Of a stretch of 31,650 nucleotides of DNA, positions 18,927 to 28,052 are shown piece after piece; the stretch's first letter is position 1; each line of letters begins with the position of its first letter. The DNA is from a virus. The notes beneath the pieces were generated by a model. That model had not been told where the DNA came from. It did not search any database and saw nothing but the letters and a program-made list of their open reading frames with translations. Position numbers and translations under genes: made by a program. The stretch spans positions 1-31,650 of the IMG/VR virus record IMGVR_UViG_3300027736_000156; one strand, written 5' to 3'.

Positions 18927-19350
18927 GTGGACATATAATGGCAATCTATTTACATCAGAACAAACTGAAGGTTTCTATGGGTTCGTATACCTGATTACGA
19001 ACACTGATAATAATCGAAAGTATATAGGTCGAAAGTATTTCACAAAAGCAAAAACAACTCAGCTAAAAGGCAAGAAGAAAAGGTCAAGAGTCGGCTCTGG
19101 ATGGGAAGACTATTGGGGTTCTAATAAAGTTTTAGTTGAAGAGGTTGCGGTTCATGGTAAAGAAAAATATAGGAGGGAAATTCTACATCTTTGCAAATCA
19201 AGGTCCGAGTGTAGTTATATGGAGACTTTTGAAATCTTCAATCGTTCCGCTCTTCTGAGCGACTCTTACTATAACTCATGGGTGACTTGTAAAATTCACA
19301 AATCTCATGTAATAGGAAAAATCGATGGCACGAAAACCAATAGCAAATAA
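18907..19350 (+). CDS. GIY-YIG nuclease-like protein
   Basis: 147 residues, starting within the zinc-ribbon gene. GFVYLITNTDNNRKYIGRKYF carries the FVY...YIG form of the GIY-YIG core, followed by a basic stretch (QLKGKKKRSR) and GSGWEDYWGSNK. EILHLCKSRSECSYMETFEIF supplies the downstream conserved Glu. Phages carry many proteins of this kind, either as free-standing homing endonucleases or as resident enzymes. The overlaps on both sides argue for an established gene, not a recent insertion. Confidence 0.75.
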   Translation: MMTITNEWTYNGNLFTSEQTEGFYGFVYLITNTDNNRKYIGRKYFTKAKTTQLKGKKKRSRVGSGWEDYWGSNKVLVEEVAVHGKEKYRREILHLCKSRSECSYMETFEIFNRSALLSDSYYNSWVTCKIHKSHVIGKIDGTKTNSK

Positions 19351-20062
19351 TGAAACAATAGTGGCCAAAACATCTAATCAATTGAAAATAAGAATTGATG
19401 ACTTAAAAACATTTACCCCATTAACAGAGAATCAAAAGATATTTTTTGATGCATATCGAAGAGGTGATTATTTTGTAGCACTACATGGTGTTGCAGGTAC
19501 AGGAAAAACATTCTGTGCATTATATAAAGCAATTGAAGAAGTACTAGACAAATCAAATCCATTTACCAAAATCATTGTAGTTCGTTCAGCGGTGCAAAGC
19601 CGTGAGATAGGTCACCTTCCAGGTGATGTAAACGAAAAGATGGAAATATATCAGCAACCATACAGACAAATCTGTGAGACTCTATTCGGTCGCCGTGATG
19701 CATGGGACAGACTAGAAGAACAGCATCACATAGAGTTCATCAGTACTTCATTCATTCGTGGTATGTCATTCGATGACGCTATCATTATTGTAGATGAGAT
19801 GCAGAACATGACTTTTGAAGAAATAGATACCGTTATGACACGGGTTGGTTATCGCTCAAAGATTCTATGGTGTGGTGACTATCGTCAAACAGACTTGAAT
19901 AAGAAGAAGAATGATGTATCGGGCATTCTTAAATTCTTTGACATTGCCATGCACATGAAGGCATTCACTAGAATTGAGTTTACCGCAGATGACATTGTTC
20001 GTTCATCATTGGTTAAAGACTACATCTTGGCAAAGATACAATACGAAGATAACATTTCATAA
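19325..20062 (+). CDS. phoH: PhoH-like P-loop ATPase
   Basis: 245 residues, overlapping the previous gene by 26 bases. Walker A GVAGTGKT at residues 55-62, the PhoH signature RSAVQSREIGHLPGD, and Walker B IIIVDEMQNM are all present, with the sensor WCGDYRQTDL. PhoH is one of the most common genes of aquatic phages; a role in RNA metabolism or phosphate stress has been proposed, without a firm function. Confidence 0.92.
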   Translation: MARKPIANNETIVAKTSNQLKIRIDDLKTFTPLTENQKIFFDAYRRGDYFVALHGVAGTGKTFCALYKAIEEVLDKSNPFTKIIVVRSAVQSREIGHLPGDVNEKMEIYQQPYRQICETLFGRRDAWDRLEEQHHIEFISTSFIRGMSFDDAIIIVDEMQNMTFEEIDTVMTRVGYRSKILWCGDYRQTDLNKKKNDVSGILKFFDIAMHMKAFTRIEFTADDIVRSSLVKDYILAKIQYEDNIS

Positions 20063-22813: not shown

Positions 22814-22887
22814 TGGGGATTTGTGTAATGGTAGCACAGCAGACTTTGAATCTGTTAGCACAAGTTCGATTCTTGTATCCCCTGCCA
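22814..22887 (+). tRNA. tRNA-Gln (TTG)
   Basis: Full cloverleaf with loop CTTTGAA, anticodon TTG, and encoded CCA. Acceptor TGGGGAT pairs with ATCCCCT; position 1 and 72 are a U-U mismatch. First tRNA of the array. Confidence 0.92.
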
Positions 22888-22958
22888 TATAAAAACACAC
22901 TTCCGACAGTAGGCGGAACTTTGGATATGTCCATTCGGGTGAGTGTGTTCCTATATGG
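22885..22958 (+). ncRNA. structured tRNA spacer 1 (three-way junction)
   Basis: CCATATA (22885-22891, including the CCA of tRNA-Gln) pairs with TATATGG (22952-22958), then AACACACT with AGTGTGTT. Two small hairpins (TCCG/CGGA and TGGA/TCCA) complete a branched fold between tRNA-Gln and tRNA-Ser. No T-loop or anticodon arm is present, so it is not a tRNA. A processing signal or a stable RNA like the T4 RNA C/D species is possible. Confidence 0.5.
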
Positions 22959-22962
22959 TATT

Positions 22963-23051
22963 GGAAGAGTGGGTGAGTGGTTTAAACCAGCAGTCTTGAA
23001 AACTGCCGACTGTAACAAGGTCCCTGAGTTCGAATCTCAGTTCTTCCGCCA
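22963..23051 (+). tRNA. tRNA-Ser (TGA)
   Basis: Class II tRNA with long variable arm; stem GCAGT, loop CTTGAAA, anticodon TGA; acceptor GGAAGAG with TTCTTCC, G73 and CCA. Confidence 0.95.
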
Positions 23052-23058
23052 AGTTTAT

Positions 23059-23150
23059 GGAGAGTTGGATGAGTGGCTTAAATCGGCACCCTGCTAAGGT
23101 GTTGTCTGTAGAAATATGGGCCGTGGGTTCAAATCCCACACTCTCCACCA
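23059..23150 (+). tRNA. tRNA-Ser (GCT)
   Basis: Class II tRNA; stem GCACC, loop CTGCTAA, anticodon GCT; acceptor GGAGAGT with ACTCTCC, A73 and encoded CCA. Confidence 0.95.
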
Positions 23151-23169
23151 AATTAAGCAAGGAGTTGGT

Positions 23170-23418
23170 ATGTCGCATGAAGAAGAAAAAATCAAGCATT
23201 CTAAACGCATTTTCGAAACAGACAATGCAGTGAAGAAACAAGTTAAGATTGCTAAAGAGTTCGGCATTGTTGTTGATGAGCCTCACAAATTCGCAAAACA
23301 TCATGCTATGAATTGTGGTAATCCAAAATGTTTCATGTGTAGTAACCCTAGAAAAGTTTTCAAAGAGAAAACAATACAAGAACAAAGACTCGAACAAGAT
23401 TTAGAAAAAGAAGACTGA
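23170..23418 (+). CDS. small conserved phage protein with CxxC motif, ending inside a tRNA
   Basis: 82 residues from ATG 23170 behind AAGGAG; a longer reading would run through tRNA-Ser. The C-terminal half, FAKHHAMNCGNPKCFMCSNPRKVFKEKTIQEQR, is a motif shared by many tailed-phage proteins (H-x-A-M-x-C-G-x-P-x-C-x-M-C-x-N-P-R), probably metal binding through three cysteines and a histidine pair. Function unknown. Its last two codons and TGA stop overlap the acceptor stem of tRNA-Met by 7 bases, which is unusual. Confidence 0.75.
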   Translation: MSHEEEKIKHSKRIFETDNAVKKQVKIAKEFGIVVDEPHKFAKHHAMNCGNPKCFMCSNPRKVFKEKTIQEQRLEQDLEKED

Positions 23419-23486
23419 TAGCTTAATGGTAAAGCAGCCGACTCATAATCGGTCGAGTAAGAGTTCAATTCTCTTTCAGTCTACCA
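23412..23486 (+). tRNA. tRNA with CAT anticodon (Met or Ile2), copy 1
   Basis: Stem GCCGA, loop CTCATAA, anticodon CAT; acceptor AGACTGA with TCAGTCT, A73, CCA. Overlaps the stop codon of the preceding protein gene. One of three CAT tRNAs; whether C34 is lysidine-modified (Ile) cannot be read from the sequence. Confidence 0.9.
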
Positions 23487-23487
23487 T

Positions 23488-23566
23488 GCCCTTGTGGACA
23501 AATCTGGTAAAGTCGCTTCTCTCAAAAGGAAGAGTTCTCTCAGTTCGAATCTGAGCAAGGGTACCA
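23488..23566 (+). tRNA. tRNA-Leu (CAA), short variable region
   Basis: Acceptor GCCCTTG with CAAGGGT (G1-U72), A73, CCA. D-arm is of the Leu kind. Stem CTTCT, loop CTCAAAA, anticodon CAA. The variable region is only six bases (AGTTCT), whereas leucine tRNAs are class II with a long arm; the array's two other Leu tRNAs have one. Confidence 0.8.
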
Positions 23567-23571
23567 GTTAT

Positions 23572-23649
23572 AGTGCGGTGGCCGAGTGGTCAAAGGCAAC
23601 TGATTGCAAACCAGTACAATCGTGAGTTCGAATCTCACTCGCACTTCCA
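23572..23649 (+). tRNA. tRNA-Cys (GCA)
   Basis: Loop TTGCAAA, anticodon GCA; acceptor AGTGCGG with TCGCACT; U73, the Cys discriminator, then CCA. One A-C mismatch in the anticodon stem. Confidence 0.92.
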
Positions 23650-23651
23650 GT

Positions 23652-23677
23652 CACTGTTGTATTTTTGTAACAGTGTG
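23652..23677 (+). other. hairpin closing the first tRNA group
   Basis: CACTGTT and AACAGTG pair around a T-rich loop just after tRNA-Cys and before the next promoter. It lacks a following U-tract, so it may be a weak terminator or a 3' processing structure. Confidence 0.4.
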
Positions 23678-23687
23678 AAAATAGATG

Positions 23688-23715
23688 TTGACAAAACCTA
23701 CAGTTCTGTTATACT
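23688..23715 (+). promoter_or_regulatory. sigma70 promoter for the second tRNA group
   Basis: TTGACA (23688-23693), 16-bp spacer, TATACT (23710-23715). Followed by the second boxA-like copy and tRNA-Glu. Confidence 0.8.
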
Positions 23716-23741
23716 TCATTCATCGGTTGAGAAATCGATAT

Positions 23742-23765
23742 GTTCTTTAAAAATTTGCATTGCTT
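23742..23765 (+). repeat. boxA-like leader repeat, copy 2
   Basis: Exact copy of 22787-22810 placed two bases before tRNA-Glu in the leader of the second tRNA promoter. Conservation of the whole 24 nt in the same promoter-to-tRNA position argues for function. Confidence 0.6.
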
Positions 23766-23767
23766 AT

Positions 23768-23842
23768 GCTCGGTTCGACTATCGGTTAGGTCGCTAGCCT
23801 TTCAAGCTGGAAAGACGGGTTCGATTCCCGTACCGAGTACCA
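23768..23842 (+). tRNA. tRNA-Glu (TTC)
   Basis: Stem CTAGC, loop CTTTCAA, anticodon TTC; acceptor GCTCGGT with ACCGAGT (G1-U72), A73, CCA. Confidence 0.93.
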
Positions 23843-23990
23843 TTGTTAAGTGTTATCAGGGTATCGTCATAGGACGCTATGACTACTCGACAGTAAGGGT
23901 GCGACCAACACTGTCTGATATAACTGCTATTCGCTTGTGAGTGTTAGCTACATTATTCACAAATAGGCACGATAGCACTTAACAATGGTA
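23838..23990 (+). ncRNA. structured tRNA spacer 2, closed by a 20-bp stem
   Basis: Positions 23838-23857, which include the ACCA end of tRNA-Glu, pair with 23971-23990 over 20 bp with a single G-U. Inside are GTCATAG/CTATGAC, GACAGT/ACTGTC and TTGTGA/TCACAA stems, giving a branched RNA of about 150 nt with no open frame. It ends 5 bases before tRNA-Lys. I know no named RNA family that matches; analogues are the stable RNAs of the T4 tRNA cluster. Confidence 0.6.
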
Positions 23991-23995
23991 AATTT

Positions 23996-24069
23996 GGGGG
24001 TATAACTTAGTGGTAAAGTAGTAGGCTTTTAACCTATTAACCAGAGTTCGATTCTCTGTACCCCTACCA
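23996..24069 (+). tRNA. tRNA-Lys (TTT)
   Basis: Stem GTAGG, loop CTTTTAA, anticodon TTT; acceptor GGGGGTA with TACCCCT, A73, CCA. Confidence 0.94.
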
Positions 24070-24077
24070 AAAGTTTT

Positions 24078-24163
24078 GGAGATATGGCCGAGTGGCTGAA
24101 GGCGGCAGACTGTAAATCTGTTCTGTAAAAAGCACGGTGGTTCGAATCCATCTGTCTCCACCA
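24078..24163 (+). tRNA. tRNA-Tyr (GTA)
   Basis: Class II; stem GCAGA, loop CTGTAAA, anticodon GTA; long variable arm; acceptor GGAGATA with TGTCTCC, A73, CCA. Confidence 0.94.
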
Positions 24164-24367
24164 ATCCCGTTACCACTTTCGTTAAAGTGGCGCTTGATTA
24201 GCGATAGAGATCCGGTGGCAGAAAACCGTTAGCGAGTACGGCACAGAACCCGACTCAGGCTCTGATAGGCAGAATCCTAACTGCACACAGACATTAGAAT
24301 AAAATGGATGGACAGAGTAACTGCTCAATTAGGGGCTTGTGTGGAAACAAGTAGCCTATTCTAATTT
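24164..24367 (+). ncRNA. structured tRNA spacer 3
   Basis: 204 nt without a reading frame between tRNA-Tyr and the aberrant tRNA-Asp. Visible stems: CCACTTT/AAAGTGG (24173-24190), CGCT/AGCG (24191-24203), CGGT/ACCG (24213-24228) and ATTAGAATA/TATTCTAAT (24293-24301, 24357-24365). The last encloses GGCTTGT...ACAAGTAGCC. Signatures of RNase P RNA and tmRNA were looked for and not found. A structured RNA of unknown type. Confidence 0.5.
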
Positions 24368-24442
24368 GGTTCGTAAGTGTTCATGGACGCACATATGCCT
24401 GTCACGCATAAAGAAGGGGATCGTTACCCCTACGAACCGCCA
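24368..24442 (+). tRNA. aberrant tRNA-Asp (GTC)
   Basis: 75 nt with 7-bp acceptor GGTTCGT/ACGAACC, 4-bp D stem, perfect anticodon stem TATGC/GCATA, loop CTGTCAC (anticodon GTC, C38), T stem AGGGG/CCCCT, G73 and CCA. Asp identity elements G73, G34-U35-C36, C38 and G10 are present. The T-loop is ATCGTTA instead of TTCRANY, and position 8 is A while 14 is U. The conserved U8-A14 and U54-A58 pairs are thus both reversed. Without it the array would lack Asp. Confidence 0.65.
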
Positions 24443-24471
24443 ATTGTTTTAATGTTGTTGAGGAGATGAGG

Positions 24472-24828
24472 ATGAGAATAGAAGATATGGTTGGTAAAGT
24501 GTTCACATCGGTGACAGAACATGGTCGTGAAATGGTGTTTGCTAATGATACAGAAAAATTCAAATTCTATCATTATCAAGATTGTTGCGAATCGGTTTAC
24601 ATTGAAAGCATTGTAGGTGATTTATCAGATTTAGAAGGTGAACCACTTTTGATTGCTGAAGAAGTTTCAGGTGAAATACCAAAAGCTAGAGAAGATGAAT
24701 ACATTGAATCTCGCACATGGACATTCTACAAATTTGCTACACGCAAAGGTTATGTTGATGTTCGTTGGTTGGGAGAATCAAACGGTTATTATTCTGAGTC
24801 AGTAGATTTGGAATACGAGTTAGTATAA
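24472..24828 (+). CDS. DUF7448-like conserved phage protein
   Basis: 118 residues from ATG 24472, which is 6 bases after AGGAG; the ATG at 24466 touches the SD and is unlikely. MVGKVFTSV...MVFANDTEKFKFYHYQDCCESVYIESIVGDLSDL and TWTFYKFATRKGYVDVRWLGESNGYYSESVD match a widespread small phage protein (DUF7448) with a QDCCE-(S/N)-V motif. Function unknown. It lies between the second and third tRNA groups and shares their transcript. Confidence 0.85.
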   Translation: MRIEDMVGKVFTSVTEHGREMVFANDTEKFKFYHYQDCCESVYIESIVGDLSDLEGEPLLIAEEVSGEIPKAREDEYIESRTWTFYKFATRKGYVDVRWLGESNGYYSESVDLEYELV

Positions 24829-24831
24829 AGT

Positions 24832-24905
24832 TTTTGTGGTAAGGAAAGTAAAAGGAGAATGGGCAAGTCGTTGACTAATCAATGACTAGATACCTCACCT
24901 GCCAC
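24832..24905 (+). ncRNA. structured tRNA spacer 4
   Basis: TTGTGG and CCACAA close a fold that contains an 8-bp stem AGTCGTTG/CAATGACT with a 6-base loop. It follows the DUF7448-like gene and precedes tRNA-Asn. No T-arm, so not a tRNA. Could protect the mRNA end or guide tRNA 5' processing. Confidence 0.4.
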
Positions 24906-24917
24906 AATTTTAATTAT

Positions 24918-24993
24918 TCCTCAGTAGCACAGCGGTAGTTGCGTCTGGCTGTTAACCAGAATGTCGGTGGTTCGATCCCATCCTGAGGAGCCA
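24918..24993 (+). tRNA. tRNA-Asn (GTT)
   Basis: Stem TCTGG, loop CTGTTAA, anticodon GTT; acceptor TCCTCAG with CTGAGGA, G73, CCA. Confidence 0.95.
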
Positions 24994-25046
24994 GTACTCG
25001 CCTTGATTGATGGCGTATAATGAGATAAGTAGTCAATCGCATTTTT

Positions 25047-25121
25047 GGGGGATTAGTGATAATGGGAGCACATGTGCTTTGCAAGCATGAAGTGGGAGTT
25101 CGATCCTCCCATCCTCCACCA
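25047..25121 (+). tRNA. tRNA-Ala (TGC)
   Basis: Loop TTTGCAA, anticodon TGC; acceptor GGGGGAT with ATCCTCC, containing the G3-U70 wobble that defines alanine tRNAs; A73, CCA. The 53-nt spacer before it has only a weak CGCC/GGCG hairpin. Confidence 0.95.
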
Positions 25122-25132
25122 ATAGAAGTCCA

Positions 25133-25207
25133 CTGAATATAAAGAGGTGGCAGATTAATCACCTCTGAGTTCAGAGTAGTTTGATTAGCAGTCGGTGGAA
25201 GCCCGAC
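25133..25207 (+). ncRNA. structured tRNA spacer 5
   Basis: CTGAA/TTCAG encloses AGAGGT/ACCTCT (25143-25148, 25161-25166), followed by hairpin GTCGG/CCGAC (25191-25207). It shares two 9-mers with spacer 3 (TTGATTAGC and GGTGGCAGA). Not a tRNA: no U33-anticodon loop fits. Confidence 0.4.
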
Positions 25208-25216
25208 ACCTATTTC

Positions 25217-25290
25217 GCCCTATTAGTATAATGGTATTACACCTGTCTTGTAATCAGGTTACGGCAGTTCGATTCTGTCATGGGGCACCA
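25217..25290 (+). tRNA. tRNA-Thr (TGT)
   Basis: Loop CTTGTAA, anticodon TGT; acceptor GCCCTAT with ATGGGGC; A73, CCA. A U-U mismatch closes the anticodon stem. Confidence 0.93.
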
Positions 25291-25298
25291 AGTTTTAT

Positions 25299-25375
<77 letters not shown>

Positions 25376-25379
25376 ATGT

Positions 25380-25455
25380 CGCAGAGTATGGAAGTGGTCA
25401 TCCGCTTGGTCTCATAAGCCAAGAACCGCAGGTTCGAATCCTGCCTCTGCTACCA
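25380..25455 (+). tRNA. tRNA with CAT anticodon, copy 2 (1-72 unpaired)
   Basis: Stem TTGGT, loop CTCATAA, anticodon CAT; acceptor CGCAGAG with CTCTGCT, leaving C1 and U72 unpaired as in initiator tRNAs. The anticodon stem has only two G-C pairs of the three typical of initiators. A73, CCA. Confidence 0.85.
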
Positions 25456-25459
25456 ATAT

Positions 25460-25534
25460 GGTGATATAGCACAGCGGTAGTGCATCTGCTTCATACGCAG
25501 GAGGTCGTTGGCTCGAATCCAACTATCACCACCA
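25460..25534 (+). tRNA. tRNA with CAT anticodon, copy 3
   Basis: Stem TCTGC, loop TTCATAC, anticodon CAT; acceptor GGTGATA with TATCACC; A73, CCA. T-loop CTCGAAT (C54). Confidence 0.9.
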
Positions 25535-25538
25535 ATTA

Positions 25539-25613
25539 GGGTCTTTAGTAAAATGGATATTACAGTAGGCTACGAACCTACGAGTGGGAGTTCGATTCTC
25601 TCAGGACCCACCA
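25539..25613 (+). tRNA. tRNA-Arg (ACG)
   Basis: Stem GTAGG, loop CTACGAA, anticodon ACG, which needs host TadA to make inosine; acceptor GGGTCTT with AGGACCC; A73, CCA. Confidence 0.94.
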
Positions 25614-25618
25614 AGTTT

Positions 25619-25693
25619 CCTCTTGTAGCTCAATGGTAGAGCATTCGGCTGATAACCGAAAGACCTAAGGTTCGATTCCTTTCGAGAGGACCA
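25619..25693 (+). tRNA. tRNA-Ile (GAT)
   Basis: Stem TTCGG, loop CTGATAA, anticodon GAT; acceptor CCTCTTG with CGAGAGG; A73, CCA. Confidence 0.95.
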
Positions 25694-25696
25694 TAT

Positions 25697-25771
25697 ATCT
25701 CGCTGGTGTTAACGGCAGCATGACGGTCTCCAAAACCGTGGGACGGGGTTCGAATCCCTGGCGGGGTGCCA
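25697..25771 (+). tRNA. tRNA-Trp (CCA)
   Basis: Stem ACGGT, loop CTCCAAA, anticodon CCA; acceptor ATCTCGC with GCGGGGT; G73, the Trp discriminator; CCA. Confidence 0.95.
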
Positions 25772-25784
25772 TAAAGGAAGTAGT

Positions 25785-26273
25785 ATGAAAAATTTTGAAA
25801 TCGAAAAAGTGAAAGAATTCGTTGTGAATCAAGGACCTGATACGAAAATTTATCTTGGTGCTGATTCAGAAAGAGTTAGAGTTGACGGCGTGTGGTATGC
25901 AGATTATGCATTGGCTGTTGTAGTTCATATTGATGGACGCCATGGCTGTAAGATTTTCGGTTTTCTAAATCGTGAATTAGATTACGACCACAAGAAAAGC
26001 AAACCTGCTATGAGGTTGATGACTGAAGTCTACAAGGTTTCAGAATTATTTCAATCGTTAGCTGATGTGCTTGAAGATAGACATGTTGAAGTTCATTTGG
26101 ACTTGAACAAATCTGATGAACACGGAAGTTCTTGCGTAGTGCAACAAGCAATTGGTTATATCAAAGGTACATGTAATGTGACACCAATGGTCAAGCCAGA
26201 TGCGCCAGCCGCAAGTTTCTGTGCTGATAGACTGAAAAGAATCTTAGCTGAACAAGAATTGGCTAAGGTATAA
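25785..26273 (+). CDS. RNase H-like protein (YkuK-type)
   Basis: 162 residues behind AAAGGAAG. KIYLGADSERVRVDGVWYADYALAVVVHIDGRHGCKIFG has the first beta strands and catalytic-type Asp (D27) of an RNase H-like fold, and HLDLNKSDEHGSS supplies further acidic residues. It resembles the YkuK/DUF458 group seen in bacteria and phages. Position inside the tRNA array, three bases before tRNA-Gly, makes an RNA-processing role attractive but untested. Confidence 0.7.
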   Translation: MKNFEIEKVKEFVVNQGPDTKIYLGADSERVRVDGVWYADYALAVVVHIDGRHGCKIFGFLNRELDYDHKKSKPAMRLMTEVYKVSELFQSLADVLEDRHVEVHLDLNKSDEHGSSCVVQQAIGYIKGTCNVTPMVKPDAPAASFCADRLKRILAEQELAKV

Positions 26274-26276
26274 TAT

Positions 26277-26351
26277 GCGGGTATGGTGCTAGTGGTAACA
26301 CAAGACCTTGCCAAGGTTTAGTTGAGGGTTCGATTCCCTCTACCCGCTCCA
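26277..26351 (+). tRNA. tRNA-Gly (GCC)
   Basis: Loop TTGCCAA, anticodon GCC; acceptor GCGGGTA with TACCCGC; U73 as expected for Gly; CCA. Confidence 0.94.
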
Positions 26352-26390
26352 GTATAGAGTGCAGGCTCTTTATAAATCTTGCCTTTGTGT

Positions 26391-26428
26391 GGCACCGAAC
26401 ATTGCTTCTGCTTGAATAAGCATCGGTG
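26391..26428 (+). ncRNA. hairpin spacer between the Gly tRNAs
   Basis: GCACCG and CGGTGC form a 6-bp stem, with TGCTT/AAGCA stacked inside. It lies between tRNA-Gly(GCC) and tRNA-Gly(TCC) in an 81-nt spacer that has no reading frame. Confidence 0.4.
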
Positions 26429-26432
26429 CATT

Positions 26433-26506
26433 GCGGGGTTAGTTTAATGGTAAAACTGTAGATTTCCAATCTTCCGTTGAGAGTTCGATTCTCTCACTCC
26501 GCTCCA
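26433..26506 (+). tRNA. tRNA-Gly (TCC)
   Basis: Loop TTTCCAA, anticodon TCC; acceptor GCGGGGT with ACTCCGC; U73; CCA. Confidence 0.93.
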
Positions 26507-26532
26507 TTGTTTATTGTATGAGTTTGCTTTGG

Positions 26533-26608
26533 GTTGTGCTTAGTGTAGTGGTCTGCACCTCTCGCTGTGACCGAGATAGTATGAGTTCAATCCTCATAGC
26601 ACAACCCA
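26533..26608 (+). tRNA. tRNA-His (GTG) with long extended acceptor stem
   Basis: Stem TCTCG, loop CTGTGAC, anticodon GTG. G-1 (26533) opposite C73 (26605), the His hallmark; CCA encoded. The flanks continue the acceptor helix: 26523-26540 and 26598-26615 form 18 perfect base pairs that include G-1 and the CCA end. Confidence 0.93.
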
Positions 26609-26631
26609 AAGCAAATTAATAGGAGAAAATT

Positions 26632-27213
26632 ATGCCTTCAGTATTTTTAACAAGTGACACACATTTTGGTCATGCTGGAGTGTGTAAGTTTATGCGTGAT
26701 GACGGAGTAACGAAATTAAGACCATGGGACAATCCAGAAGATATGGATGAAGAAATGGTCAAGCGATGGAACGAAACTGTTCGACCAAATGATAAAGTGT
26801 ACCACCTCGGTGATGTTGTAATCAACCGAAAGGCACTTAGCATCATGCACAGGCTGAACGGTGATAAAGTTCTGATTCGTGGTAACCATGATATCTTTCG
26901 TGATGATGAATACAGAATTCATTTTCGTGAATTGAGAGCATATCATGTAATGAATGGAATGATTCTTAGTCATATCCCAATTCATAGTGACAGTCTAGGT
27001 CGTTTTGGTACAAACATTCATGGTCACACCCATTCAAACCGTGTGATGATTCGTGGCTTCAATGGTAAACCTATGGGTGTTGATGCTAGATACCATTGTG
27101 TTTGTGTAGAACAAACAGACTTTAGACCCATTCTCTTTGAAGATGTGATTAAGAGAATCGAAGAAGAAGGTGGTTCCGTTGGCTTTAAAAACGGCAACGG
27201 TCCCACTATGTAA
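26632..27213 (+). CDS. calcineurin-like metallophosphatase
   Basis: 193 residues with SD TAGGAG. Metal-binding blocks in order: SDTHFGH (D9, H11), YHLGDVV, RGNHD, LSHIPIH and IHGHTHSN. The family hydrolyses phosphomono- or diesters, and many phages carry one of this length. Nothing indicates the substrate; in the tRNA array a 2',3'-cyclic-phosphate or RNA-end activity is a possibility only. Stop is three bases before tRNA-Val. Confidence 0.85.
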   Translation: MPSVFLTSDTHFGHAGVCKFMRDDGVTKLRPWDNPEDMDEEMVKRWNETVRPNDKVYHLGDVVINRKALSIMHRLNGDKVLIRGNHDIFRDDEYRIHFRELRAYHVMNGMILSHIPIHSDSLGRFGTNIHGHTHSNRVMIRGFNGKPMGVDARYHCVCVEQTDFRPILFEDVIKRIEEEGGSVGFKNGNGPTM

Positions 27214-27216
27214 TTT

Positions 27217-27291
27217 GCCTTGTTAACTCAGCGGTAGAGTAACTCTTTTACACGGAGAAGGTCGGCGGTTCAATCCCGTCACAAGGTACCA
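27217..27291 (+). tRNA. tRNA-Val (TAC)
   Basis: Loop TTTACAC, anticodon TAC; acceptor GCCTTGT with ACAAGGT; A73, CCA. The anticodon stem has one mismatch at 27-43. Confidence 0.88.
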
Positions 27292-27297
27292 ACAATT

Positions 27298-27371
27298 GCT
27301 CTCATAGTTAAGTGGTATAACACATCCTTGGTAAGGATGAATTCTGAGTTCAATTCTCGGTGAGAGCACCA
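27298..27371 (+). tRNA. tRNA-Thr (GGT)
   Basis: Stem CATCC, loop TTGGTAA, anticodon GGT; acceptor GCTCTCA with TGAGAGC; A73, CCA. Confidence 0.95.
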
Positions 27372-27372
27372 T

Positions 27373-27448
27373 GCTACTTTAGCTGATGTGGTCATAGCGA
27401 TGGTCTGAAGAACCATTGAAAGAGGTTCGATTCCTCTAGGTAGCACCA
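27373..27448 (+). tRNA. tRNA-Phe (GAA)
   Basis: Stem ATGGT, loop CTGAAGA, anticodon GAA; acceptor GCTACTT with AGGTAGC; A73, CCA. Confidence 0.94.
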
Positions 27449-27454
27449 ATTTTT

Positions 27455-27471
27455 AAAAGCAATGCAAATTT
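27455..27471 (-). repeat. inverted partial copy of the boxA-like leader
   Basis: Read on the - strand this gives AAATTTGCATTGCTTTT, sharing 16 consecutive bases with leader copy 1 at 22787-22810 plus its next base. It stands three bases before tRNA-Leu(TAG). In the transcript it would be complementary to the leader. Confidence 0.55.
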
Positions 27472-27473
27472 AT

Positions 27474-27556
27474 GCCCCGATGGTGGAATGGTAGACACGC
27501 TGGTCTTAGAAACCAGTGCCTAGTGCGTGGGAGTTCGAGTCTCCCTTGGGGCACCA
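27474..27556 (+). tRNA. tRNA-Leu (TAG)
   Basis: Class II with long variable arm; stem CTGGT, loop CTTAGAA, anticodon TAG; acceptor GCCCCGA with TTGGGGC; A73, CCA. Confidence 0.95.
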
Positions 27557-27562
27557 TTATTG

Positions 27563-27592
27563 CCACACAAGTCTGTGTGGTTGTGTTATAAT
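27563..27592 (+). promoter_or_regulatory. hairpin and extended -10 promoter for the MazG-like gene
   Basis: CCACACA/TGTGTGG (27563-27580) form a 7-bp hairpin, followed at once by TGTTATAAT, an extended -10 (TGn-TATAAT, 27584-27592). No -35 at normal spacing. The hairpin may end upstream transcription or be an operator. Confidence 0.5.
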
Positions 27593-27614
27593 GCATTCAT
27601 TAGGAGAAAAGACA

Positions 27615-27881
27615 ATGAATGATGTTGATAGAGAAATTATGTTGATTACACAAGAAGAATGTGCAGAGGTCACACAAGCAATCAGCAAGTGTTTTCGATT
27701 TGGTCTAAATGAAACATACAATGAGCGTACAAACAAACAACGATTAACTGAAGAGTTAGGTGACTTGCATTGCATGATTGAATTGATGGTTGAATCAGGT
27801 ATGATTAACCGAGAAGAATTACTCAATGCATCAGGTCTCAAACGACAAAAATTGCAGAAGTGGTCTGCAATATTCAAATAA
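27615..27881 (+). CDS. MazG-like nucleotide pyrophosphohydrolase
   Basis: 88 residues from ATG 27615 with SD AGGAGA; a longer frame would run through tRNA-Leu. QEECAEVTQAISKCFRFGLNE has the EExxE-type metal-binding pattern and TEELGDLHCMIELM the ExxD pair of all-alpha NTP pyrophosphohydrolases. Family members hydrolyse (d)NTPs or ppGpp-like nucleotides to monophosphates. With RNR, ThyX and the nucleotidase it extends the nucleotide-pool functions of this phage. Confidence 0.8.
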   Translation: MNDVDREIMLITQEECAEVTQAISKCFRFGLNETYNERTNKQRLTEELGDLHCMIELMVESGMINREELLNASGLKRQKLQKWSAIFK

Positions 27882-27887
27882 AATATT

Positions 27888-27962
27888 CTGGCGTTAGTAT
27901 AATGGATAATACAGTAGGCTTCTACCCTTCTAATGGGAGTTCGATTCTCTCACGCCGGACCA
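27888..27962 (+). tRNA. tRNA-Arg (TCT)
   Basis: Loop CTTCTAC, anticodon TCT; acceptor CTGGCGT with ACGCCGG; A73, CCA. One U-U mismatch in the anticodon stem. Reads AGA/AGG, the Arg codons most used in AT-rich phage genes. Confidence 0.92.
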
Positions 27963-27967
27963 ATCAA

Positions 27968-28052
27968 GCGAGTATGGTGAAATTGGTAGACACAGGAGAT
28001 TTAAAATCTCCCGCTTTCGGGCGTGCTGGTTCAAATCCTGCTACTCGCACCA
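27968..28052 (+). tRNA. tRNA-Leu (TAA)
   Basis: Class II; stem GGAGA, loop TTTAAAA, anticodon TAA; acceptor GCGAGTA with TACTCGC; A73, CCA. A run of seven T follows the CCA, so the tRNA and T-run may act as the end of the array transcript. Confidence 0.95.

Follow-up and report, generated by a model that had tools for sequence, protein, structure and literature searches.

The universal tertiary pairs U8/A14, R15/Y48 and U54/A58 are all replaced in a tRNA-Asp(GUC) carried by a virus of bacteria, which instead has A8/U14, C15/A48 and A54/U58. The gene lies in a 31,650-base virus record from IMG/VR, which was analysed whole and is called the window here, and ARAGORN places it, as the single Asp tRNA, among 28 clustered tRNAs at 22814-28052 that together cover all 20 amino acids. 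We consider it probable that the gene encodes a functional phage tRNA-Asp whose core has been re-paired, likely rewritten so that host factors acting on tRNA bodies fail to recognise it. The basis is that the gene is present, that it is conserved with compensatory changes in its stems, that relatives have a canonical-core version at the same slot and that many other phage tRNAs vary at 54/58. The features of the gene, all on the plus strand, are as follows.

24368..24442, plus strand: tRNA-Asp(GUC), 75 nt, CCA encoded; exact ARAGORN call, 38.1 bits with the Rfam tRNA model under lax filters, 94 distinct relatives with covarying stems
24375..24376, plus strand: A8 A9, where U8 (the s4U site) is canonical; from the sequence, numbered from both ends
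24377..24392, plus strand: D-arm GUGU-UCAUGGAC-GCAC with U14, C15, A16, G18, G19 and C21, G10 retained; near-invariant in relatives
24399..24405, plus strand: anticodon loop CUGUCAC with G34 U35 C36 A37 C38, the bacterial Asp identity set (by numbering; identity table in PMC9976931)
24411..24414, plus strand: variable loop AAGA (44, 45, 46, 48), A48 replacing a pyrimidine; little variation in relatives
24420..24426, plus strand: T-loop AUCGUUA (by numbering) with A54/U58 reversed, U55 C56 G57 retained and A60 replacing a pyrimidine; found in 94 distinct tRNA-Asp and in other isotypes
24440..24442, plus strand: encoded CCA end (by numbering)

A sequence-only reading had described both U8/A14 and U54/A58 as reversed in a molecule with intact helices and Asp identity elements. 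Numbering the full molecule (GGUUCGU-AA-GUGU-UCAUGGAC-GCAC-A-UAUGC-CUGUCAC-GCAUA-AAGA-AGGGG-AUCGUUA-CCCCU-ACGAACC-G-CCA) from both ends confirms this, placing A8 at 24375, U14 at 24381, A54 at 24420 and U58 at 24424, and adds non-canonical positions which that reading had missed, namely C15/A48 (canonically R/Y), C21 and A60. All pairs of the 7-, 4-, 5- and 5-bp stems form, with a single D-stem wobble (U13-G22), and RNAfold returns a cloverleaf, though it shifts the register of the D-arm. G73, G10, G34, U35, C36 and C38, which make up the identity set of bacterial tRNA-Asp (PMC9976931), are all there. The sequence retains G18 with U55 and G19 with C56, the bases of the two elbow contacts, so the usual L could form. 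The cloverleaf lengths, GUC anticodon, G10, C38, G73, G18/G19, U55/C56 and CCA are shared with canonical bacterial tRNA-Asp(GUC), whereas A8/U14, C15/A48, C21, A54/U58 and A60 stand in place of U8/A14, R15/Y48, A21, U54/A58 and Y60. By sequence the molecule has neither of the uridines, U8 and U54, that are modified to s4U8 and m5U54.

No other tRNA among the 28 of the window has A8/U14 or A54/U58. A second tRNA without U54, called as Met(CAT) at 25460-25534, has C54/A58 and the T-loop CUCGAAU. Asp codons make up 295 of the 4281 counted in eleven window ORFs (GAU 196, GAC 99). A PhoH gene at 19325-20062 has its best phage-record match, at 48.2% identity, in a cyanophage, and window positions 1-25000 have no isolate-phage match at megablast level. 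On the minus strand at 23059-28050, the tRNA genes give weak, sub-threshold antisense matches to the Rfam Plastid-ycf2 and psbl-rps4 models, probably reflecting tRNA sequence within those models.

The unusual core is conserved. An exact 33-mer running from the anticodon loop to the T-stem recurs in 72 IMG/VR stretches, which is beyond chance, and two further patterns of this tRNA gave at least 120 IMG/VR matches each. ARAGORN found 120 distinct tRNA-Asp(GTC) in 346 loci, 94 of them with A54, and the final filtered set from 360 loci held 133 distinct tRNA-Asp, 94 of which are A54/U58; these Asp counts are enriched by the pattern-based choice of loci, and protein-selected loci hold 52 variant versus 37 other Asp. 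Over the 94 distinct A54/U58 tRNA-Asp, Watson-Crick or G-U pairs fill 1952 of 1974 stem cells, and 15 of 21 pairs, including 12/12 in the acceptor and anticodon stems, show changes on both sides; at pair 29-41 as many as 60 sequences do. In 14 sequences, a U inserted beside the T-stem causes 49-65 to be scored as a U-C mismatch. The D-arm (AAGUGUUCAYGGACGCAC), variable loop (AAGA) and T-loop (AUCGUUA) vary little, and two of the 94 sequences have a different D-arm with G8/G14.

Structural selection on the stems together with a near-fixed unusual core is the opposite of decay, and the earlier view that the change is not random decay is upheld by this alignment. That the gene is a decaying pseudogene out of use, as its departure from universal positions and its Rfam score of 38.1 bits, below the 41.8-72.2 bits of the others, might suggest, is very improbable given that 94 distinct sequences show compensated stems with the CCA and the identity set intact. 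It is also the sole Asp tRNA found in 220 of the 226 loci that carry it; 6 loci have it beside another Asp and 53 have another Asp alone. The loci of this tally overlap in their contigs, many of them were picked with a pattern of the variant tRNA, and genes may be missing from fragments. Decayed helices here with a normal copy elsewhere, the outcome named beforehand as evidence against the tRNA, is therefore not what the 220 loci with only this Asp present. Decay was rejected on the stem compensation.

The expectation that standard searches may miss this tRNA held for one tool and not for another. An Rfam cmscan of the window at the gathering threshold reports 27 other tRNAs without it, and it is also absent from a 5.5-kb Rfam scan with E up to 10. 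ARAGORN, by contrast, calls tRNA-Asp(GTC) at exactly 24368-24442, and the RF00005 tRNA model run on 131 bases with lax filters gives 38.1 bits, above the 29-bit gathering cut-off. The model thus accepts the molecule and the speed filters lose it, and a default Rfam scan can overlook a real phage tRNA.

The T-loop change extends beyond Asp. Among 1672 distinct filtered tRNAs from loci L001-L233, 138 lack U54, and 137 of these retain U55-C56-G57. Extended to 3242 distinct tRNAs from 360 loci, the number without U54 is 296, and the 54/58 combinations are U/A 2945, A/U 201, A/A 34, C/A 33, C/G 15, C/U 8, G/G 4, U/U 1 and G/A 1. The A54/U58 type spans 15 anticodon classes, with Asp contributing 94 of the 201. 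Excluding Asp, U54 is missing from 71/1098 tRNAs in protein-selected loci, 128/2133 in pattern-selected loci and 19/264 in 14 isolate-phage records, which were chosen as matches of the tRNA cluster or of the window ORF at 25785-26273; for all isotypes the isolate figure is 20/277. Among isolates, A54/U58 is seen for instance in phages of Aeromonas, Vibrio (two), Synechococcus, Stenotrophomonas, Xanthomonas, Rhodobacter and Pseudomonas, and the tRNA-His of the Rhodobacter phage combines A54/U58 with A8/U14. Stenotrophomonas phage DLP_6 and Rhodobacter phage RcXuper both have A54/U58 tRNAs. Where a locus holds 15 or more tRNAs, at least one is non-U54 in 199 cases out of 202, a proportion to which Asp-based selection contributes. 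The variant Asp belongs to a wider phage habit of rewriting tRNA cores, one that is apparently undescribed. By reading, neither the 8 annotated T4 tRNAs nor the 25 T5 tRNA entries have lost U54, which separates the T5 tRNAs from the variant Asp with its A54, although T5 (record AY543070) resembles it in having A8/U14 in tRNA-Thr and A8 in G1 and I2. A backup-copy idea was tried and rejected: of 106 anticodon sets with several copies (Met excluded), 28 combine a canonical T-loop with an altered one and 1 contains two altered loops, where the chance expectation was reckoned at ~17% from the single-copy rate, and half of the mixed sets (14) are Glu.

One explanation for this breadth needs no nuclease. 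Phage tRNAs made in a burst may outrun host ThiI and TrmA, so that cores not needing s4U8 or m5U54 would be favoured. It would account for the loss of exactly the two modified uridines, the replacement of U54 by A, C or G and the retention of U55 in 137/138, but we regard it as rather unlikely, given that most phage tRNAs keep both uridines, that U8 loss and U54 loss are unassociated outside Asp and that the isotype bias is strong: most non-U54 tRNAs are Asp, Ile-GAU, His, Glu or Met, and none occurs among 132 Cys, 119 Ser-GCU and 113 Tyr. The isotype bias and the missing general association also count against escape from body-reading host factors, the explanation we prefer, since no such bias would be expected if U54 were under general pressure.

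Within the core, several positions are tightly linked. In the 3242 distinct tRNAs, U58 occurs 210 times, 209 of them with non-U54 (31/31 in the 70% identity clusters), A54 is accompanied by purine 60 in 208/235, Y15 by R48 in 423/457 and non-U8 by R48 in 327/366; the links 54-58, 54-60, 15-48 and 8-48 all persist after 70% identity clustering. A reversed 15/48 (pyrimidine 15, purine 48) was seen in 423 of the 3242 distinct phage-locus tRNAs, coupled to U8 loss. From the Y15-R48 and non-U8-R48 links, 15/48 is also reversed as a class, and 8, 15 and 48 change together. Westhof 2020 argues that a shift of 48 has to come with a shift of 54, as both are on the same strand (PMC7566577).

The sequence-only reading had called the double swap a coordinated change, which is right only in part. 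Outside Asp, A54/U58 is found in 10/56 A8/U14 tRNAs versus 97/3053 others (odds ratio 6.6, p 1.4e-5), and the exact double swap remains enriched after 70% clustering (odds ratio 6.3, p 0.02). However, non-U8 and non-U54 in general show no association outside Asp (odds ratio 1.2, p 0.43), and the pairs also occur apart: among family-typical tRNAs with A8/U14, L285 has U54/A58 and L248, L308 and L323 have C54/A58, so the two pairs can switch separately. A single D-arm family includes A/U, C/A and U/A at 54/58, and A54/U58 accompanies U8/A14 in 33 of 1672 distinct tRNAs. The 8/14 and 54/58 reversals are only loosely coupled.

The ORF just downstream of tRNA-Asp (24466-24828) anchors a slot that can be followed between related loci. 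The re-paired tRNA-Asp fills it in the window, L006-L014, L018 and L019, and a canonical-core tRNA-Asp (U8/A14, U54/A58) in L001-L005, L015-L017 and L020. Between the window and L001, identity is 50.7% for tRNA-Asp against 90.2% for the 204-nt element upstream and 94.2% for the downstream ORF, from which we infer that unlike tRNA-Asp versions were exchanged in place. A tree of the downstream ORF (360 columns, 14 rows), poorly resolved with one well-supported branch, does not group the alleles (4 label changes versus a shuffled mean of 3.6), which suggests repeated exchange. The window and L001 also differ in the tRNA-Tyr on the far side of the 204-nt element, at 72.1% identity; rapid turnover of tRNA genes in this region may therefore have other causes, a point against our preferred reading.

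The alleles differ in the anticodon arm too. The canonical-core alleles have the anticodon loop UUGUCUA, with U37/A38 and hence no C38, and those of L001-L004 and L020 also have A10 in place of G10, whereas the re-paired allele of the window carries the whole bacterial Asp identity set. Over all distinct tRNA-Asp, A37-C38 is retained in 90/94 re-paired bodies and 16/39 other bodies (Fisher p 1e-11, a value that ignores kinship), and in Asp a re-paired body and an altered anticodon loop would thus seem to be alternatives.

The 204-nt element at 24164-24367, between tRNA-Tyr and tRNA-Asp, is a conserved structured RNA. Alignment of 29 of its 37 full-length distinct homologues gives 38 consensus pairs, 7 with changes on both sides. 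It has neither an Rfam match nor an isolate-phage match and apparently lies outside any Rfam family. A tRNA-like regulator or decoy in place of a decoding tRNA could explain a fixed and unusual core, and the adjoining conserved RNA suggests that the cluster holds other small RNAs. We nevertheless find such a role improbable, since the anticodon loop and Asp identity set are complete and a canonical-core tRNA-Asp occupies the same slot in relatives; moreover, the 204-nt RNA also stands beside the canonical-core allele of L001, while the spacing indicates that some variant alleles (L006, L007, L010) have no such neighbour.

Neutral drift among tolerated cores, with weaker selection on phage tRNAs, spread by recombination and no benefit, is possible, though we doubt it. 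The 54/58 types C/A, G/G, A/A and C/G resemble trans Watson-Crick/Hoogsteen relatives of U/A (isostericity), as such tolerance would lead one to expect. The difference in the adjoining tRNA-Tyr fits drift as well, and A54/A58 with A48 is accepted in eukaryotic tRNA-Ala (PMC7566577). In the T5 record AY543070, G1 and I2, both with A8, are noted as amber suppressors when given a new anticodon; the A8/U14 tRNA-Thr with a changed anticodon is not, which, as the nearest tested case, weighs against a working re-paired tRNA. Drift is hard to reconcile with a variant Asp core that stays near-fixed over 94 sequences while its stems turn over. The enrichment of Asp counts by pattern searches tempers our preferred reading. 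The window holds 24 GATC sites where 120 are expected, a depletion of about five-fold, which suggests that it may avoid a GATC-directed restriction system; over 197 variant-Asp loci the depletion is weaker (ratio 0.72). A54 after G53 creates a GATC in the variant Asp family, yet is retained, again unlike drift. Avoidance of TCGA as a cause was rejected: the window has 93 against ~106 expected, with mildly low numbers outside the cluster (61 versus 87), A57 would be a simpler removal and A54 makes a GATC, a site depleted in the window.

Two small controls used bacterial genomes. In one cyanobacterial MAG, all 22 tRNAs passing the filter are U54/A58 and U8/A14 and 9 more failed end-finding, in a small control drawn from the best 30 of 40 tRNA matches and biased to high scores. 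The A54/U58 T-arm pattern GGATCGTNNCC+CCA matched in 29 of 146 genomes of that phylum, and among the 30 loci examined a tRNA lay at the match only on a phage contig; cyanobacteria often lack an encoded CCA, which makes this CCA-based search a weak control. A host origin was rejected, the D-arm pattern matching one genome contig, L234, a 3-kb piece of a cyanobacterial MAG with four tRNAs like those of phage clusters. At 2361-2451 on its minus strand, this contig also has, next to the variant tRNA-Asp, an amber tRNA (anticodon CUA) whose variable arm is long, and loci L001-L360 together hold 10 distinct CUA tRNAs. For a homologue in isolated phages, blastn gave 5 partial matches, and the two examined (H62 and H65) have no tRNA by ARAGORN.

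Known tRNAs offer partial parallels. Eukaryotic initiator tRNA has A60. Its T-loop is A54/A58 (PMC7912444), so it shares A54 with the phage tRNA-Asp but retains A58, in a type confined to initiators, where the phage has U58. Westhof 2020 describes A54/A58 with R15/A48 in eukaryotic tRNA-Ala and its absence from bacterial and archaeal tRNAs (PMC7566577). That tRNA-Ala(AGC) resembles the phage tRNA-Asp in pairing a purine 54 with A48, in purines at 16 and 60 and in having a residue at 17 (here A16, U17, A48, A54, A60), but the phage molecule, with U58 and C15, is not of the A54/A58, purine-15 type, and its 8/14 change has no counterpart described for tRNA-Ala in the sections consulted. Phage tRNAs are reported to evade host nucleases through anticodon-loop changes (van den Berg 2023, PMC10264068); they share with our tRNA a divergence from host tRNA at a recognisable region, whereas here the anticodon loop is of bacterial type and the body is changed. 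The six body-region terms searched for do not occur in the text of PMC10264068, and a term search of a review of non-canonical tRNAs (PMC7609411) gave no mention of phages. Among the open-access matches listed, taken at the level of titles and abstract openings and with subscription literature mostly outside, none reports A54/U58 phage tRNAs.

We propose that the core of tRNA-Asp is held by A8/U14, Y15/R48 (here C15/A48) and A54/U58 instead of U8/A14, R15/Y48 and U54/A58, that it presumably folds to the usual L and that A54/U58 would take the place of U54/A58 in the stack on G53-C61, its edges exchanged. Host AspRS would charge it through the complete identity set, and it would decode GAU and GAC, presumably when host tRNAs fail. 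Selection may have retained and diversified the re-paired core; less certainly, nucleases directed at the T-loop or core, or enzymes with U8 and U54 as substrates, would no longer recognise it. Escape from body-reading factors is favoured because unlike bodies share one slot, because position 54 may be A, C or G and because such factors are reported: CdiA-CT E479 is a T-loop-cleaving bacterial tRNase (PMC9086364), Cas12a3 contacts the tRNA T-arm (PMC12851939) and Septu cuts a tRNA variable loop (PMC13096335).

More tentatively, and at odds we would not call favourable, tailed phages may keep alternative cores, with 8/14, 15/48 and 54/58 reversed or replaced, and swap these alleles in place as an antigenic-type escape from body-recognising host systems. 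If so, the tRNA elbow and core would join the anticodon loop as ground on which phage and host are in conflict. U54/A58 and U8/A14 are regarded as close to universal, and they are relied on in search filters, in modification biology and in the design of tRNAs. A conserved natural A54/U58 class in many isotypes means that the tRNA core has other solutions; these tRNAs are ready-made test molecules for the purpose of s4U8 and m5U54, and their existence suggests that bacterial defences may read tRNA bodies.
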